IMG/VR virus record: IMGVR_UViG_3300034407_002242
Location: 1-35,723 of that record
DNA: 35,723 nucleotides
Strand: one strand, 5' to 3'
From: a virus
Both the position numbers and the translations under genes were made by a program. Numbering within the stretch: the first letter of the stretch is position 1; every line of letters starts with the position of its first letter. Below, piece by piece: positions 384-35,677 of this stretch. The notes below the pieces were generated by a model. It was not told where the DNA came from, did no database searches, and saw only the letters and a program-made list of their open reading frames with translations.

Positions 384-412
384 AATGTATACCTTAGTGA
401 CGGTGGTGTCAA
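384..412 (-). promoter_or_regulatory. sigma70-like promoter with TGAC-N6-GTCA operator
   Basis: On the minus strand TTGACA (407-412), a 17-base spacer and TACATT (384-389) form a promoter pointing at the 28-336 gene. The perfect dyad TGAC-N6-GTCA occupies 398-411 and overlaps the -35 box. The same dyad recurs in nine other gene-start regions. It lies across the stop codon of the TetR-like gene (409-411). Confidence 0.7.
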
Positions 413-4326: not shown

Positions 4327-4412
4327 TTGATTTTTATTAACGCTATCATTATAGTGACGCTGTTGTCAAATTGAAATTAAGTGTTGACACGACCGTCACG
4401 AACGATTAATAT
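4327..4412. promoter_or_regulatory. divergent early promoter region with two TGAC-N6-GTCA operators
   Basis: Plus strand: TTGACA (4384-4389), 17 bases, TAATAT (4407-4412) is a near-ideal sigma70 promoter for the replication operon. A second plus-strand candidate is TTGATT (4327-4332), 17 bases, TATAGT (4350-4355). Minus strand: a TATAAT and a TTGACA occur in the same interval and can serve the helicase operon. Perfect dyads lie at 4355-4368 and 4385-4398, thirty bases apart, or about three helical turns. One protein could thus control both early operons at once. Confidence 0.75.
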
Positions 4413-6684: not shown

Positions 6685-7560
6685 ATGTCTACAGAAATCC
6701 TTACCCCAGTTGGTCGTTTAGTATCTGGTCACCCAATGGAGCAGAACGCTAAGACGGACAACCAGAAACAACCGAAATTCTTTGCTGATGGTCAGCCAAT
6801 GATGGAAACATATGTTGGTGTTGCAATTCCTAAAACGGGTGAAGCGGATTGGAAGCATACACCATGGGGTCAACAGCTTGTTGCTGAAGCGACAGCAGCA
6901 TGGCCGCGCGGTGAACATGGTGCACCATCGTTCGCATGGAAAATCATTGATGGTGACTCAGCTGTTCCGAACAAGAAAGGTACGCCACCTAATTCACGTG
7001 AAGGTTTCCCAGGTCATTGGGTAATCGGTGGTTCGACAATGCTTCATGTTAAATGTTTCCACGCTGGTATGTACGAAGCACACCAAGTGATCCAGAATAA
7101 AGGTGAAATCAAACGTGGTGATTACTGTCGTCTACTTATCGAAACTAAAGGTAACGGTTCAACTGACTCACCAGGTATGTACGTCAACCCAACGTTGTTT
7201 GAGCTGACACGTGCTGGTATTGAAATCATCCCAGTCGGTAATGGTCCAAGTGCAGCCGAAGCGTTCGGTGGCTCAGTAGGTCAATTACCACAAGGTGCAC
7301 TCATTGATACAGCGGTCGCTCAACCAGCGGTCGCTCAACCAGCGGCAGCAACACCACCAGTTGTACCGGCGCATGACTTGGTTCAACCAGGTATGGTTAC
7401 TCCACCGCCAGCTGTACCACCGGTTGCGACACCTCCACCGGTTGCACCTGTAGACCCACAGTATTCGTACAATGGTGTGACATATGCTAAGTCAGCACTG
7501 TTAGCAATGCCAGGATGGTCTGAAGCAATCATCGAAGCAAACTGTACATTGGTAGGTTAA
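6685..7560 (+). CDS. DUF2815 ssDNA-binding-like protein with proline-rich tail
   Basis: The first about 190 residues match the DUF2815 group, regarded as phage single-strand DNA-binding or annealing-associated proteins: an OB-fold-like stretch with WKIIDGDS and GHWVIGG. From about residue 210 a Pro/Ala/Val-rich linker with AVAQPAVAQPA repeats leads to a short C-terminal helix region YAKSALLAMPGWSEAII. That tail could be a protein-docking peptide, as in other SSBs, though it is not acidic. I choose ATG 6685, not 6670, because GGAG lies nine bases before it. It is directly downstream of the DUF2800 nuclease and is followed by a terminator. Confidence 0.8.
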   Translation: MSTEILTPVGRLVSGHPMEQNAKTDNQKQPKFFADGQPMMETYVGVAIPKTGEADWKHTPWGQQLVAEATAAWPRGEHGAPSFAWKIIDGDSAVPNKKGTPPNSREGFPGHWVIGGSTMLHVKCFHAGMYEAHQVIQNKGEIKRGDYCRLLIETKGNGSTDSPGMYVNPTLFELTRAGIEIIPVGNGPSAAEAFGGSVGQLPQGALIDTAVAQPAVAQPAAATPPVVPAHDLVQPGMVTPPPAVPPVATPPPVAPVDPQYSYNGVTYAKSALLAMPGWSEAIIEANCTLVG

Positions 7561-7581
7561 TCGCCCCATTCATCCACACAG

Positions 7582-10017: not shown

Positions 10018-10539
10018 ATGAACACATATTCAAAATTGAAAGGTCTTTTATCTGTCACCCCTAAGAATGATATCAGATACTATTTGAATGTTATTCGCGT
10101 TACATCATCGGAATTAACAACATCGAATGGTTCGTCGGCTGTAATAGTCGAACATCATACATCAGGTGTCGATAGTGAGATTTTAATATGTCGTCACGAT
10201 CTTGCCACCAAATTAAAATTATTCAAAAAGAATGATGAGTTAAACATCACAGTAAACGGTGATTCCGTTTTCTTGAATGAATATAAACTTAAAACCGTCG
10301 ATGGTCGTTACCCTGATATAAAGCGTGCATTAAAAAATAATTTCGACGATGGAAATAGAAATGGCAGTGATGAAATTGGTTTTGATATGACATTGATGTC
10401 AAAAATATCAACAGCAGTGAACATGATAAAAAGTGACCCAAAATTACCAGGTGCGAAGTACACATTTTACGGGGCATCGAACGGATGCAAAATTGAAACA
10501 GGAACCATCACGGCGTATGTAATGGCGTGCCGACTTTAA
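10018..10539 (+). CDS. miniature beta-type sliding clamp-like protein (173 aa)
   Basis: Several features recall bacterial DnaN. NDIRYYLNVIRV and a following TSNGSSAVIV strand resemble a clamp domain start. KTVDGRYPDIKR (about 91-102) matches the 'dGrYPDyrrv' turn. The protein ends AYVMACRL, close to the MPMRL end of beta clamps. DnaN has about 366 residues in three domains; this product is less than half that, so a ring would need more subunits than the DnaN dimer. The position directly after the polymerase supports a processivity role. GGAG lies in the leader that is nearly shared with the next gene. The gene is AT-richer than its neighbours. The call is inference from motifs. Confidence 0.6.
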   Translation: MNTYSKLKGLLSVTPKNDIRYYLNVIRVTSSELTTSNGSSAVIVEHHTSGVDSEILICRHDLATKLKLFKKNDELNITVNGDSVFLNEYKLKTVDGRYPDIKRALKNNFDDGNRNGSDEIGFDMTLMSKISTAVNMIKSDPKLPGAKYTFYGASNGCKIETGTITAYVMACRL

Positions 10540-17291: not shown

Positions 17292-17648
17292 TTAAACCAC
17301 CTTTCCCACTGCGAAATCAACCTCACCATATGTCGTCAACACTTGACCTGTGACGGTATACGTACGTGTTGGTATGTCGAACTCGGTATTGAATTCAAGT
17401 ATTTGTTTTACATCTGGTGTCTGTGCAATGCGTCGTTTGATGATCGCATCTTTGCTCGACAACGTACCACCCTTCCCAAGTATCTCTTGAAACCATGGTG
17501 TACCGTCGTTAATGTCACGGAAGTATTCACCGAGGAACAATGCCAAACGTGTTTTAATGGTTTGTGCCACCTCGTCACGTTCAGTTAAAAATTGCACACC
17601 ACTCGTTACGATATCACCGGTGATGGGGTCTAACTTTCTTACTGTCAT
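17292..17648 (-). CDS. gp25-like baseplate wedge protein (GpW/gp25 lysozyme-like fold)
   Basis: A 118-residue protein with the gp25 pattern: FLTERDEVAQTIKTRLALFL, then GEYFRDINDGTPWFQEILG, then a beta-rich end. gp25 nucleates sheath assembly on the baseplate. It lies between the spike and J-like genes, as expected. The start overlaps the spike stop by four bases (ATGA). The family is clear from order and pattern. Confidence 0.88.
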   Translation of the reverse strand: MTVRKLDPITGDIVTSGVQFLTERDEVAQTIKTRLALFLGEYFRDINDGTPWFQEILGKGGTLSSKDAIIKRRIAQTPDVKQILEFNTEFDIPTRTYTVTGQVLTTYGEVDFAVGKVV

Positions 17649-18325
17649 TGTGGGCCACCTGTATTGCTCGGTCCAGTTTGAACGCCACCATGGACGTGAC
17701 CTACACCACTGATACCACCGAACGACACGTCAGTCGAACCTGTCACCTGTGGGGCACTGACTTCAACGGTTGCTGATATGGTGCCCGTGGTGGTCTGGTC
17801 ACCAGCGTGGATGATGTCACCAGTCACATTCAATGTGTCGACGGTGATGTCGGCTGTACCATCGTTTTTCAACCAAATGTATTTATCACCTTCTTTATTA
17901 CGAAGACGAATACCGTTGTTTTCAAAGTTACTGATGGCGTTCGGTTGTGAACGTAAACCTGGCAAGATGGCCGCATCACTGAAATCGTGGAATCGCATGA
18001 TAGGATTCTGAGCTGTACCACCTGTATTCACCCACCCATCAATACAACGTTGGGAGAATATGATCAGACCTTCATCACCTGGGTCGATTTGATGTTCGAC
18101 GAAATATTCAGAACCACCGAAGAACGCAACGGGGCATTCAATCAAGGGTGTGGGTTCGAACGTCTGACCATTTACATCGACACGGACAACACCAATTTGC
18201 AACTGTGCAAGCTGTGTTTCAGGGTCAAACGCGATGATGTTGCCCGGTATAGACGTGCCGACATCCTTCATCATTTCGATAAAGGAACGTTTTATTAAAT
18301 TGGTTAGCGATGCTTTCTGTGTCAT
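17645..18325 (-). CDS. baseplate central spike protein (gpV/gp45-like) with HxH tip
   Basis: An N-terminal OB-like domain (residues about 20-110, including GLIIFSQRCIDGWVNTGG) is followed by a repetitive beta-helix shaft (DGTADITVDTLNVTGDII). It ends GVGHVHGGVQTGPSNTGG, the HxH motif that coordinates iron at the tip of phage P2/phi92-type spikes. The trimer would pierce the outer membrane. I use ATG 18325; the frame is open to 18367 only through a GTG inside a promoter. ATG 18325 has no ribosome site, and a -10-like TATTAT lies seven bases before it, so the message may be leaderless. It borders the ncRNA unit. Confidence 0.85.
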   Translation of the reverse strand: MTQKASLTNLIKRSFIEMMKDVGTSIPGNIIAFDPETQLAQLQIGVVRVDVNGQTFEPTPLIECPVAFFGGSEYFVEHQIDPGDEGLIIFSQRCIDGWVNTGGTAQNPIMRFHDFSDAAILPGLRSQPNAISNFENNGIRLRNKEGDKYIWLKNDGTADITVDTLNVTGDIIHAGDQTTTGTISATVEVSAPQVTGSTDVSFGGISGVGHVHGGVQTGPSNTGGPQ

Positions 18326-18351
18326 ACCGTCAATAATAATTGAAAAAAGTA

Positions 18352-18380
18352 TTGACACCACTGTCACGAGGATATAGAGT
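18352..18380 (+). promoter_or_regulatory. promoter with TGAC-N6-GTCA operator, driving no protein gene
   Basis: TTGACA (18352-18357), 17 bases and TAGAGT (18375-18380), or TATAGA with a 15-base spacer, point rightward. The dyad TGAC-N6-GTCA covers 18353-18366, exactly as at the moron promoters. No plus-strand coding frame follows for a kilobase, so the product must be RNA. On the other strand the same bases carry a GTCAATA element before the spike gene. Confidence 0.7.
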
Positions 18381-18386
18381 TAGTGG

Positions 18387-19420
18387 TATCAAACAAGGCG
18401 ACAGGGGTGACAACCCTGTAATCAGATGAACGAGAGCCCATCCGGTGTATACGATACGGCGCGGGTGAAGAAGACTAGATGAGTATGGTAAGTCTTCACG
18501 GGTTAGCAGGTAAAACGAGGCGTCGTTCACAACACGCCTATCGTCATCAAGCTGATAAAAGTCACAGCCCTTGTTTGATACTTTATTGACATAAATATTT
18601 TAGAGAGTGGTTTTGAGATTCATGGGTACGGTTGACACGTAACGAACCGTCATAAATGTTTCGGAATTAACCGACTTGAAGGGGACGACCCATAAAGACC
18701 ACTCTCTAAAGCGAATATTTTCAGTGCTGTTTTTAACGCTTTAATAACGCTTCGGGCGATTACCGCAAATAATAAAACATACCGCAGCAACTTGCGTCAC
18801 AGCCGTTAGCATCACGTCACGATGCACCATACATTTATTCACCGTCGCCGGGCGATTCGCTACCGTCGGTATAAGGGGGTGGTCCAAGGGAGAGTCCTGC
18901 CAAAAAGTGGGCGAGAACCGTAACGTCGTGAGATGTATCACAGTTCTCTTAACATCAGTTCAATAACCGGTGCGATGGTGTAAGTCTGATATCGACAAGT
19001 TGAGTGTGTGCACACAACCGGCTCGAACATATCAACCTAGCATTTTCAACGAAAACCTGTGATTAATTTGCAATGACATTACAGCTCTATCGTTGATAGG
19101 TCATCATTGGGATGTCGCACCGGTTATTGAATTCATGAAGTATCAAGCGCGGATAGTTTGGGCACTGGCTATCTTTATAATGCGCCGTAAAAGCCGGAAC
19201 ATGTTGCCTCAATTTAAGTTTCCGTTCGACACATGCGGTGATGGTTAACGGTTAGTCAGATGGTCCTCCATCCATCGAGTTGCTTGCCACAGCAGCGAAT
19301 ATAATCACACTTCGACGCCAAATACATAGTGGTTATAAGACGCCCTAACTTGAAATGTGTAAGCCGATGTCATGTTGCAACTCATATTGGTAGCCCCGCC
19401 AATGGCGACAAAGGGGTTTC
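18387..19420 (+). ncRNA. candidate large structured noncoding RNA (about 1.03 kb)
   Basis: The stretch has no credible gene on either strand but many helices. A 13-bp helix pairs 18599-18611 with 18698-18710 and encloses ATGGGT/ACCCAT (18622/18688), ACGGTT/AACCGT (18628/18645) and TCGG/CCGA (18661/18671). A perfect 17-bp helix pairs 18959-18975 with 19115-19131 and encloses TGATAT/ATATCA (18987/19029). Local hairpins occur at 18401-18419, 18465-18499, 18518-18539, 18913-18948, 19147-19185 and 19300-19337. A C4/G4 stem-loop with T-rich tail (19392-19419) is a weak terminator candidate. The promoter at 18352 gives the strand. Size and complexity recall ornate phage RNAs such as GOLLD or ROOL; class membership is not established and the function is unknown. 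Confidence 0.75.
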
Positions 19421-19423
19421 ATT

Positions 19424-20269
19424 CTATCGAATACTCGTAATTGATGACGTCCACGTATCACCCCAACTGTCCCCCGTATGCCTCAACCTGAATATTCTGT
19501 AAATACCTTTCCCTGCGTTACCAGGTACATCCTGAAAATAAATGTTGCTGAAGTTGAAGGTGGCAAGGTCGGTTTGTACGTCAATCTGTCCACCTATACG
19601 CAGCTTCGGTGAGAGTCGAACACTTACATCACAACCGTTTTCCGTTATCTCTGGTATACCTTCCATTCCACTGAACTGCGATACGAGATATGGTGTGCCG
19701 CGACGATACGAATTGTCAGCCACAACAATCACTCGTTCGTTCTCAATCATGTATTTGAATTTATGTGATACGGACAAGTTATCGAGATACACACGCGGAT
19801 CACCCGTTAGCACCTGACCACGTGGAAACGGTGGTACATCGGCGAAGTCCTCGTCACGGATCACAATTGGATAGCCCATTGCTGATACACACGCTCTGAT
19901 GATATCAACCAGTCGAGCATCTTTACCCAACGTTTGATTGACTGTCGCTGTCTTGGGTTGCGAACCACCGCGGGCAATAATGCGGGTGATGGTGTCAGGT
20001 CCGCTTCGTTCCTTGAATACATTCTGAATCGCGCCACGGAATATGAAGTCAATCGTTTCCTCGTATCCGGCACGTAACCCCAGTATCGTTCCTTTCTTGA
20101 ATGCTTTGTTCGCCGTATCGATTGACAGGTTATAGATGGCAATATCGGCATACGTTGTCGCACCACCGAAATCAATCAAGATGTCGAACACCACTCTGAA
20201 CTGACGACCATTGACCGGAGCAATAAACGTTTCATCATTGAGCAACACTTCAAATTGTCTATTAATCAT
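19424..20269 (-). CDS. baseplate hub protein (Mu gp44/T4 gp27-like position)
   Basis: About 281 residues. The N-terminal part is beta-rich (FEVLLNDETFIAPVNGRQFR, then YADIAIYNLS), followed by LRAGYEETIDFIFRGAIQNV and a domain with LVDIIRACVSAMGYPIV. This resembles phage hub proteins that hold the spike, like the late-control D or gp44 type. The frame extends seven codons to a TTG at 20287, but ATG 20269 is more natural. The bases before it (GGGTGTCTGA) are a near copy of the end of the 20720-21013 gene, so a plus-strand cassette seems to have been inserted between two once-adjacent genes. Confidence 0.75.
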   Translation of the reverse strand: MINRQFEVLLNDETFIAPVNGRQFRVVFDILIDFGGATTYADIAIYNLSIDTANKAFKKGTILGLRAGYEETIDFIFRGAIQNVFKERSGPDTITRIIARGGSQPKTATVNQTLGKDARLVDIIRACVSAMGYPIVIRDEDFADVPPFPRGQVLTGDPRVYLDNLSVSHKFKYMIENERVIVVADNSYRRGTPYLVSQFSGMEGIPEITENGCDVSVRLSPKLRIGGQIDVQTDLATFNFSNIYFQDVPGNAGKGIYRIFRLRHTGDSWGDTWTSSITSIR

Positions 20270-20316
20270 CTTCAGACACCCACACAATCATAGTGGTGAG
20301 AGTATACGATAAACGG

Positions 20317-20357
20317 TTGCAATGGTGAACTGGTGTGATATAGTGACGGTGTTGTCA
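20317..20357 (+). promoter_or_regulatory. promoter with operator overlapping -10/+1
   Basis: TTGCAA (20317-20322), 16 bases and TATAGT (20339-20344) precede the dyad TGAC-N6-GTCA at 20344-20357, then a leader AGAAGGAATAGAA that is nearly identical to that of the 23098 gene. The dyad here covers the start site, not the -35 box. Confidence 0.65.
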
Positions 20358-20380
20358 ACTTAAATAGAAGGAATAGAATT

Positions 20381-20695
20381 ATGAGTGTAACTGAAGAGCA
20401 GGTTGAGTTTTTCAATAATATTCTTGAATGTTCAACATGGGAACCTGGGGAGTTTCAAAAAGCTATTGATATCGCTGGTGAAATAATTAAAGAGTCACAA
20501 GATAAAATAGACCGATTAACTAACAAACTAGCATCTAAAGACAGCAATAACACAGAAGAAGCAAACTTACGGGTTAAGGAGTTGGAGGGTAAACTAGCTA
20601 AGGCTATTGAAACCGCTAAGTTCTATCAAGATGCAGCTGGTGATAAACAAACATTAAAGTTCGGATATGCTCGCGTAATACAGGAGTTGAAGTAA
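20381..20695 (+). CDS. hypothetical coiled-coil moron protein, 104 aa
   Basis: A plus-strand gene inside the minus-strand baseplate block. The protein is highly charged and helical; residues about 25-85 form a probable coiled coil (IIKESQDKIDRLTNKLASK and RVKELEGKLAKAIETAKFYQ). AGAAGGA precedes the ATG. It has its own operator-bearing promoter and a hairpin after its stop, so it is an independent transcription unit, probably expressed early. It is AT-richer than its flanks. No family recognised. Confidence 0.75.
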   Translation: MSVTEEQVEFFNNILECSTWEPGEFQKAIDIAGEIIKESQDKIDRLTNKLASKDSNNTEEANLRVKELEGKLAKAIETAKFYQDAAGDKQTLKFGYARVIQELK

Positions 20696-25882: not shown

Positions 25883-25930
25883 ATTATAAACGGTGTACCT
25901 ATTGACGCTAGTGTCATGACGGTGTATAGT
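25883..25930. promoter_or_regulatory. overlapping divergent promoters with shared operator
   Basis: Plus strand: TTGACG (25902-25907), 17 bases, TATAGT (25925-25930) for the exonuclease gene. Minus strand: GTCAATAGG (25898-25906), nine bases, TATAAT (25883-25888) for the sheath gene. The dyad TGAC-N6-GTCA (25903-25916) covers the plus -35 box and lies just upstream of the minus promoter. Confidence 0.7.
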
Positions 25931-31506: not shown

Positions 31507-32340
31507 ATGAATGTTATATCTGGTAAAGAAGCGAAAGCAGCAGGATTGAAACATTACTTCACGGGTAAACCATGTAAAAACGGTCATATCTGTGAGCGAA
31601 CAGTAGTCGATTGGAAATGTGTTCAATGTGGTAGGGATAAAGCTGTCAAATTCAGAAAGAATAATCCTGAACGTAAAAAAGAAATAGATCGTATGAGTTA
31701 CGAAAAAAATAAAATTGACAGGTTAGAAAAAGCTAAAATATACCGTCGAGAAAATTCAACTCAAATTAAACAAAGTAAGTCTTCCCATTACACGAGGAAT
31801 AAAGAATCAATATCGACTAAAGCGAAGGCGTATCGTGAAGAAAATAAAGACCAGATATCCGAGCAAAAAAAAGCATATCGCAAGCAGAACAAAGAGAAAG
31901 TGAAACTAGCTAGAAGAAAATATTATCTCGCAAACAAAGATAAGATGATCGAATCAAATAAACAATGGCGACGAGATAACCCAGAAGCCTACCGTGAATA
32001 TTTCAATAACCGTCGTAGAACTGACCTTGATTTCAAATGTGCTCAACAATGCCGTGGGATGTTACAAAGAATATTAAGAATGACCGATATGGAAAAGACA
32101 TCCGACACCGTGTCGATGTTGGGTTACAACGCAAAACAATTACGGGTGCACATCGAATCACAGTTCACGGAGGGTATGTCGTGGGAGAATCATGGTAAGT
32201 GGCACATTGACCATATCGTACCAGCATCATTGATGATCAGATACGGTGTAAGAGAGCCTGAGTTGGTTAACGCTTTGGAAAACCTACAACCTCTTTGGGC
32301 TAAAGATAATCTGAAAAAAGGGAACAGATTTGTTGGGTAA
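31507..32340 (+). CDS. HNH homing endonuclease with zinc knuckle and helical repeats
   Basis: A 277-residue free-standing HNH nuclease. A CKNGH...CVQC metal site (23-41) is followed by a Lys/Arg-rich region of about six degenerate repeats of roughly 18 residues (for example KAYREENKDQISEQK and KAYRKQNKEKVKLAR), probably a DNA-reading coil. The catalytic part is KWHIDHIVPASL (HIDHI at 233-237) and ENLQPLWAKDNLKKGN. It is AT-rich, on the plus strand inside the minus-strand head block, with its own promoter. It shares its ends with the HNH protein at 35039. No ribosome site is obvious. Confidence 0.88.
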   Translation: MNVISGKEAKAAGLKHYFTGKPCKNGHICERTVVDWKCVQCGRDKAVKFRKNNPERKKEIDRMSYEKNKIDRLEKAKIYRRENSTQIKQSKSSHYTRNKESISTKAKAYREENKDQISEQKKAYRKQNKEKVKLARRKYYLANKDKMIESNKQWRRDNPEAYREYFNNRRRTDLDFKCAQQCRGMLQRILRMTDMEKTSDTVSMLGYNAKQLRVHIESQFTEGMSWENHGKWHIDHIVPASLMIRYGVREPELVNALENLQPLWAKDNLKKGNRFVG

Positions 32341-32344
32341 TAAA

Positions 32345-32367
32345 AAGGCGACCCATCAAGGTCGCCT
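32345..32367 (-). terminator. terminator of the capsid operon (minus), convergent with the HNH gene
   Basis: AGGCGACC and GGTCGCCT around CATCAA. On the minus strand it is followed by TTTTT, so it mainly ends the capsid transcript; on the plus strand it can also act after the HNH stop. Confidence 0.85.
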
Positions 32368-32386
32368 AGTTCGTATCAATTAACTG

Positions 32387-35038: not shown

Positions 35039-35677
35039 TTAACCGAAGCATTTGTTACTTTTCTTCAAGTTATCTTCCGCCCATAGTGGTTGCAAGTTAT
35101 CCAGTGCGTTGACAAGATTAGGTTCAGTCACCCCGTACTCAAACATTAATGAAACCGGAACGATGTGATCGATATGCCATTCACCATAATTGTCCCACGA
35201 CATCCCCTCTGTGAACAGTGATGACATGTGATCCATCAATTGGTCTCGGTCATAACCCAACATTTCATAGCTCCCACCGTGTTTCTCTCGTTTACCTTTA
35301 CGTAACACCCTCTTCAACATATTCCTAGCTGACACGGCAGCCTTGTATTCTGGTGATTCATTGTATCGTTCACGTTGTCTCTCTACGCCTAGCGAAATCA
35401 GGTGGGAGCGATTGGCTAGGTAATACTGATTCTTTTTAGCTTGTCGATCGGGTTTTGTAGCATTCAATATTGAGCATTCACAACATTGACGGTTAGCAGT
35501 GGAGCGTTCCGATCTGTGACCGTTTTTACACACCATGCCTTCATAGTATCTAGACAGTTTAAACTCCATAGCTTCGTCGTGCGAAACGTATGATGTCCCA
35601 GCAATCGATTTATCCAATCGTTTGGTGATATTCTTTTCGATGAGATTGAACCAACCACCATTATTAATCTTCCTCAT
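35039..35677 (-). CDS. HNH homing endonuclease, open toward the window edge (possibly 5' partial or fused)
   Basis: The HNH core (EWHIDHIVPVSLMFEYGVTE, then DNLQPLWAEDNLKKSN) and the CKNGH...CCEC zinc site are close copies of those in the 31507 protein, but the Lys/Arg repeat region is nearly absent (212 against 277 residues). The family-like part begins around YVSHDEAMEFK. The 30 residues before it, and the frame beyond ATG 35677 to base 35723, are open without stop and rich in Arg (RRRRMRKINN). The gene may therefore be the tail of a longer protein, for example an in-frame fusion with the upstream head gene, or it may start at 35677. No ribosome site is seen there. Confidence 0.8.
   Translation of the reverse strand: MRKINNGGWFNLIEKNITKRLDKSIAGTSYVSHDEAMEFKLSRYYEGMVCKNGHRSERSTANRQCCECSILNATKPDRQAKKNQYYLANRSHLISLGVERQRERYNESPEYKAAVSARNMLKRVLRKGKREKHGGSYEMLGYDRDQLMDHMSSLFTEGMSWDNYGEWHIDHIVPVSLMFEYGVTEPNLVNALDNLQPLWAEDNLKKSNKCFG

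Follow-up and report, generated by a model that had tools for sequence, protein, structure and literature searches.

GOLLD is a large RNA of phages and prophages that lies by tRNA genes and has a conserved and a variable part; tRNAs can lie inside it, and they occur in its linkers (PMC12286853). ROOL (Rumen-Originating, Ornate, Large) RNAs fall into the same size class, come from phages and are found in tRNA islands. The 5' and 3' regions of ROOL are described as intertwined and co-evolving (PMC12286853). In tmRNA (SsrA), the acceptor, D and T parts are tRNA-like and a long helix leading to an insert replaces the anticodon arm. Finally, phage tRNAs with altered anticodon stem-loops evade the tRNA-cleaving PARIS defence (PMC11455837). 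The open-access literature on tRNA-like and structured RNAs of phages yielded GOLLD, ROOL, Pas sRNAs and viral tRNA mimics, none of them matching. The novelty concerns the element described below as module A, taken as an RNA class; the broad kind is that of large phage RNAs of unknown function.

We analysed a virus record of 35.7 kb, the whole of which is called the window. It belongs to a CP-T1/PLPE-like myophage, a bacterial virus, whose baseplate hub protein is 59.5% identical to those of Vibrio phages CP-T1 and vB_VchM-138 and 48% identical to that of Iodobacter phage PhiPLPE. The largest ORF-free gap of the window (18329-19423, 1,095 nt; the second-largest has 247 nt) is flanked on the right by the hub gene (19424-20287, - strand) and on the left by the gene in the spike position (about 17645-18328, - strand). 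The longest ORF touching the gap has 66 codons' worth of protein (66 aa), and no frame is open in all relatives; protein coding was rejected on these grounds. Thus the gene-free kilobase noticed in a sequence-only reading of this DNA is real, and the conserved protein frame that would have spoken against an RNA was looked for and not found in the relatives. ARAGORN predicts no tRNA in the window. Two related endonuclease VII/HNH-type genes, likely homing endonucleases, lie among the structural genes elsewhere (31507-32340, + strand; 35039-35677, - strand).

The hub-spike junction measures 325 nt in CP-T1, and the two genes abut in PhiPLPE. In a further relative (locus L134, hub 52% identical), the gap contains a promoter-like sequence of the same orientation, TTGACA..TTGATAAT, antisense to the baseplate genes. 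Because the size and content of the gap vary among CP-T1, PhiPLPE and L134, the junction is an accessory insertion site. Another stretch with folding potential, including a 16-nt inverted repeat, occupies the L134 junction (6858-7575, - strand).

The left end of the gap contains the candidate promoter TTGACA-17-TAGAGT (18352-18380, + strand), overlapped by the operator-like sequence TTGACACCACTGTCA (18352-18366, + strand). Operator-like TTGACANNANTGTCA sites occur seven times in the window, with 0.43 expected and 0 of 100 shuffles reaching this number: 398-412 (-), 4355-4369 (-), 4384-4398 (+), 10388-10402 (-), 18352-18366 (+), 20344-20358 (-) and 25902-25916 (+). They partly overlap -35 boxes, and some lie at promoters of other genes (4384+ and 25902+). 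Since TTGACANNANTGTCA recurs seven times, including at such promoters, shared regulation is supported by sequence, and the sites form a candidate phage regulon. Both the regulated promoter and the coregulation with other genes proposed by the sequence-only reading are upheld at this level. The + strand showed no convincing intrinsic terminator, so the 3' end of the unit is not fixed. The gap would be a + strand transcription unit of about 1 kb that encodes no protein and runs antisense to the baseplate genes on either side; its promoter would be its own, with an operator found at other phage promoters too.

The unit contains three perfect helices. Two of them, of 13 bp (18599-18611/18698-18710) and 17 bp (18959-18975/19115-19131), had been reported before as exceeding chance, and their positions are exact; a third, also of 13 bp (18386-18398/18569-18581), had been missed. 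Helices of at least 11 bp average 0.036 per dinucleotide shuffle, none of 2000 shuffles has three of them, and one helix of at least 13 bp arises in 0.25% of the 2000. The excess over chance is thus confirmed. Folding energy gives z-scores of -3.4 (+ strand) and -4.3 (- strand). That the unit is a structured noncoding RNA seems to us nearly certain.

Module A (18386-18581, + strand) consists of a tRNA-like shell around a core and an insert. The core (18420-18548), as delineated with an alignment (A1), pair counts and a model (R1), contains the following elements in order: AATCAG (18420-18425), helix H1 with a bulged A (18425-18431/18543-18548), GAGA (18432-18435), the insert, GTAAAACG (18510-18517), the hairpin P3 AGGCGT/ACGCCT (18518-18523/18534-18539), ATY, and the closing strand H1'. 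In relatives, H1 often has the bulged A after two pairs. The window copy has everything that defines the class, that is, H1-GAGA-insert-GTAAAACG-AGGCGT/ACGCCT hairpin-ATY-H1' with covariation, and the model R1, built partly from this very copy, gives it 127 bits (E 2e-30). A weak R1 match at 32300-32377 of the window (16 bits, E 0.11) was taken as chance. The promoter direction, tRNAs on the same strand inside inserts, and G-U wobble states in A1 place module A on the + strand.

The pairing is strongly supported by covariation. In A1, which comprises 41 sequences sharing the insert type of the window, 87.2% of cells are paired, as compared with 69.7% in shuffled and 32-41% in slid alignments. 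Changes on both sides are seen in 19 of 27 pairs, the number of doubly changed cells is 188 (64.8 expected), and the covariation score is 0.451 versus 0.151 (0 of 500 shuffles). All six pairs of H1 covary, and all six pairs of the insert hairpin have changes on both sides. P3 is nearly invariant, which is neutral evidence on its pairing. Invariant columns number 36 of 145. These comparisons show module A to be a conserved class of structured RNA in which the core is fixed and the insert can be exchanged, and the class is very probably new. The sequence-only reading had proposed a large structured phage RNA; this is supported, and for the first 200 nt it is now proven by strong covariation across phages.

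The shell of the window copy is formed by an acceptor-like helix (18386-18398/18569-18581), a D-position hairpin (18401-18406/18414-18419) and a T-position hairpin (18551-18554/18565-18568), all on the + strand. The predicted minimum free energy (MFE) fold of module A has a z-score of -3.7, with 0 of 200 shuffles as good, and shows the four-way layout of the cloverleaf relatives with a longer acceptor helix. Many copies have these three elements around the core, and in many phages the core takes the position of the anticodon arm in a tRNA cloverleaf. Several copies (L037, L034, L021, L047) fold as a textbook cloverleaf in which the core replaces the anticodon arm; cloverleaf relatives carry T arms of the GGTTCGAATCC or GGTGCAAATCC type. 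Among 123 parsed copies, a set that includes near-identical lambdoid ones, acceptor complementarity is 5.52 versus 3.83 (sd 0.10) with shuffled partners, and T-position hairpins number 73 versus 14.2 expected. Nevertheless, the window copy is not a canonical tRNA: its acceptor-like helix has 13 bp, its T-position loop is not a T loop, H1 and the core stand in place of the anticodon arm, and both Rfam and ARAGORN are negative. Identity with a tRNA or tmRNA was rejected after the negative ARAGORN result. The likeness to tmRNA is one of layout only, observed in the MFE folds of the window copy and its relatives. A tag reading frame and a family match are lacking, as no frame is open in all relatives and ARAGORN and Rfam are negative; moreover, the conserved linkers are unrelated, and module A is phage-borne and optional. 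A self-splicing or tRNA intron was rejected by inspection, as excision from H1 to H1' leaves no anticodon arm and restores no tRNA.

In other phages a plain helix carries module A, or a tRNA lies within it. At four loci (L154, L159, L160, L181) the core and insert are present but the D and T hairpins are lacking; because of them we regard core and insert as the essential unit, so that the shell is dispensable and tRNA mimicry may be incidental. In five large tRNA arrays of phage contigs (L045, L065, L090, L094, L032) module A is circularly permuted, with tRNAs beside the core, and in permuted copies the conserved hairpin comes first.

The insert of the window copy (type 1, 18436-18509, + strand) contains the hairpin GAAGAC/GTCTTC (18470-18475/18492-18497). 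Its first strand, X (18436-18444), can pair with both X' (18462-18467) and X'' (18499-18507). In type-1 inserts, each complementarity is above all 300 partner shuffles (X-X' 5.38 versus 4.80, maximum 5.11; X-X'' 5.71 versus 4.67, maximum 5.04). The insert of L080, for example, contains CGAATAAA twice, both complementary to X. These may be alternative pairings, or they may divide X between them by branch migration, a possible switch. Other phages have different inserts or whole tRNAs at this position.

Module A is widespread. At least about 140 distinct core copies exist (about 142 among the loci examined), and the pattern GTAAAACGAGGCGT-N-ACGCCTAT occurs in at least 119 IMG/VR stretches and in eight stretches of bacterial contigs, namely from an Omnitrophota MAG, Enterococcus, Shouchella (two places), Dyadobacter, Gordonibacillus, a Clostridiaceae MAG and Pandoraea; these counts come from exact-pattern scans and are lower bounds. 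Carriers include P22-like, N4-like, Obolenskvirus and jumbo phages and prophages of several phyla. Neighbours were scanned at five bacterial loci. At each locus one or more of them match a phage protein family, and at three the match is to terminase or head scaffolding; as PHROGs includes families common to bacteria, these matches are supportive and not proof. Most bacterial genomes lack module A. Since R1 finds the seed genome alone among 229 genomes of one class and 106 of one family, module A is phage cargo and not a host RNA.

By BLASTN, the segment 18411-18549 matches Klebsiella phage phi1_146050 and, in part, P22-like CUS-3, E. coli prophages, Escherichia phage Jgk1 and Acinetobacter phage SR. 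These matches and those of the further blocks of the unit (see below) mostly fall where there are no credible genes; short hypothetical proteins, where annotated, are on either strand. At L002 (5656-7005), L003 (5697-6665) and L005 (2620-3186) many such proteins, in some cases on both strands, are annotated over structured RNA and are probably spurious. Matches in Pseudomonas phage Kaya (26 nt, within a tail gene) and in a Shewanella plasmid (34 nt, within lepB) were set aside as chance. At L091 (1071-1121), the Rfam mcrA RNA (RF03010) has a match 130 nt downstream of a module A copy.

Typical positions of module A are tRNA clusters and, in the lambdoid late operon, the spot between Q and S; some P22-like phages have tRNA genes at that spot (PMC8022706). 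Such positions could mean that module A acts in cis to stabilise, process or antiterminate its transcript, be it a tRNA cluster or a late leader. Indeed, it is often found on the coding strand at the start of late operons or within tRNA clusters, and it can lie inside tRNAs or enclose them. However, the window copy has its own promoter, and the first gene on the same strand starts at 20381, more than 900 nt beyond the unit, with a promoter-like sequence of its own. We consider this explanation unlikely, though it is the strongest of the alternatives.

The rest of the unit consists of further modules. Module B (18599-18803, + strand) has a closing helix (18599-18614/18695-18710) followed by a conserved block (18709-18803) that is 79% identical to Vibrio phage D79 and its relatives and also occurs in Vibrio phage 1.103.O. 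In the latter the helix is kept with a changed sequence, 4 of 11 pairs being changed on both sides. Module C (18953-19204, + strand) has a helix (18953-18975/19115-19137) and a conserved block (19129-19204) that is 80% identical to Vibrio phage K389; its hairpin (19152-19156/19169-19173, + strand) changes from GATAG/CTATC to GTCAA/TTGAC in K389, a compensatory change. Module D is the 3' motif GGTAGC-CC-GCC..GGC-GACAAAG-GGG (19389-19418, + strand). BLASTN matches 19381-19417 to Leptolyngbya phage Lbo-JY16, directly after three tRNA genes, and the motif is present in nine IMG/VR stretches, in some of which the outer pair CC/GG is replaced by CT/AG, TC/GA or CA/TG. Further occurrences of B, C and D are therefore spread over Vibrio phages, cyanobacterial phages and environmental phages; a scan of IMG/VR with the exact patterns of B and C gave no match.

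Corresponding units, antisense to structural genes, were found in Vibrio phages 1.027.O, 1.033.O, 1.103.O, K461 and PS17B.1. Those of 1.027.O and 1.103.O have a TTGACA promoter-like sequence at the left end and a hairpin with a T-run at the right end. Intact tRNAs in these units are mixed with structured modules exchanged between phages, and degenerate tRNAs are also present. The locus (L145-L149, for 1.033.O, 1.027.O, K461, 1.103.O and PS17B.1, respectively) is a hypervariable RNA/tRNA cassette upstream of the major capsid gene, with conserved ends and an interior exchanged between phages. The tRNA-Gly at L145 (1314-1388) and the tRNA-Ser at L148 (1261-1348) are annotated opposite to the ARAGORN strand, and the deposited strand seems to be in error. 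The window unit looks like a mosaic of the same kind. It is, as the separate matches indicate, a chain of modules with separate histories, each of which occurs alone in unrelated phages, and not one monolithic RNA; its transcript would fold as consecutive modules, each acquired separately. From the single promoter and the lack of an internal terminator we infer that modules A to D act in one RNA.

This bears on the relationship to GOLLD and ROOL. Rfam 15 finds nothing in 18300-19480 at gathering thresholds, with only chance matches at E up to 5; Ysr35 and sR14, seen at permissive thresholds, were dismissed as such. The GOLLD model has no match in this region at the gathering threshold or at E up to 5 and none in 20 related loci, the ROOL model has none in the region or in these loci, and the OLE model has no match. 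From the likeness to GOLLD and ROOL suggested by the sequence-only reading, size, phage origin and the association with tRNA clusters remain, whereas family membership does not, nor is the unit monolithic. The relatives of module A do lie, like GOLLD, at phage or prophage sites near tRNA genes, while the window itself has no tRNA.

The unit could still work as GOLLD and ROOL do, as an abundant late RNA whose copies assemble, with no other component, into a multimer or cage that might enclose tRNAs or ribosomes. Similar size, phage origin, tRNA-cluster context and the presence of tRNAs inside inserts, as in GOLLD linkers, point in this direction. On the other hand, no sequence or structure match to the GOLLD, ROOL or OLE models exists, module A has another conserved core and insert than GOLLD and recurs as a module of about 200 nt, and the modules of the window unit are exchanged independently, unlike the intertwined regions of ROOL. 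We therefore regard such an assembly as improbable. An antisense regulator of, or transcription roadblock for, the baseplate operon is less probable by far: the unit does lie between and antisense to the hub and spike genes, and the Vibrio units are likewise antisense to structural genes, but many phages have the modules in sense orientation beside other genes, and the modules have kept their structure. That the unit is a decayed tRNA cluster or accessory-gene graveyard without function, as the degenerate tRNAs of the Vibrio units might suggest, is hardly credible given strong covariation, invariant linkers and conserved positions across unrelated phages, and for module A it is contradicted.

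The best reading is that of a noncoding phage RNA built of modules, akin to those of tRNA clusters, which includes an undescribed RNA class. As a whole, the explanation that we favour, at slightly better than an even chance, is a + strand noncoding unit of acquired modules in which module A engages host factors that handle tRNA. A role involving tRNA factors is the likeliest because module A RNAs accompany phage tRNA genes and yet have no decoding arm. Firstly, the tRNA-like or helical shell would provide a stable platform processed by the host. Secondly, the single-stranded segments AATCAG, GAGA and GTAAAACG together with the P3 hairpin would form a binding face. Finally, module A would act in trans, engaging or titrating host factors that bind, modify or cleave tRNA, and the outcome would be help against tRNA-targeting defence or in the takeover of translation. 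The tRNA-Lys of phage T5 that acts against PARIS is analogous in having a phage-encoded tRNA shape, a changed anticodon region and a place in phage tRNA clusters. However, module A has no anticodon arm at all and cannot replace a cut tRNA; for this reason only the role of a decoy or adaptor would be open to it, and we consider such a role possible but rather unlikely.

A wider generalisation is tentative, with the chances somewhat against it. Module A may be a widespread, undescribed class in which either a plain helix or a tRNA shell that lacks the anticodon arm presents a conserved three-way-junction core and an exchangeable insert, with one insert strand having two competing partners. Its targets, reached in trans, would be the host's tRNA handling, its translation or tRNA-based defence, and in mosaic units it would be joined to other RNA modules that circulate among phages.

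What large phage RNAs do is an unsolved problem, and module A brings to it a class of at least 140 copies with many different inserts, whose structure is proven by covariation. The variety of inserts sets off the conserved part, which must be the part that matters. Copies in lambdoid phages and E. coli prophages make the function testable with ordinary laboratory phages. Annotation centred on proteins misses such RNAs or fills them with false ORFs. Phage tRNA clusters and late-operon spots are trading places for structured RNAs, and mosaic units, if real, would be the RNA counterpart of accessory-gene cassettes.
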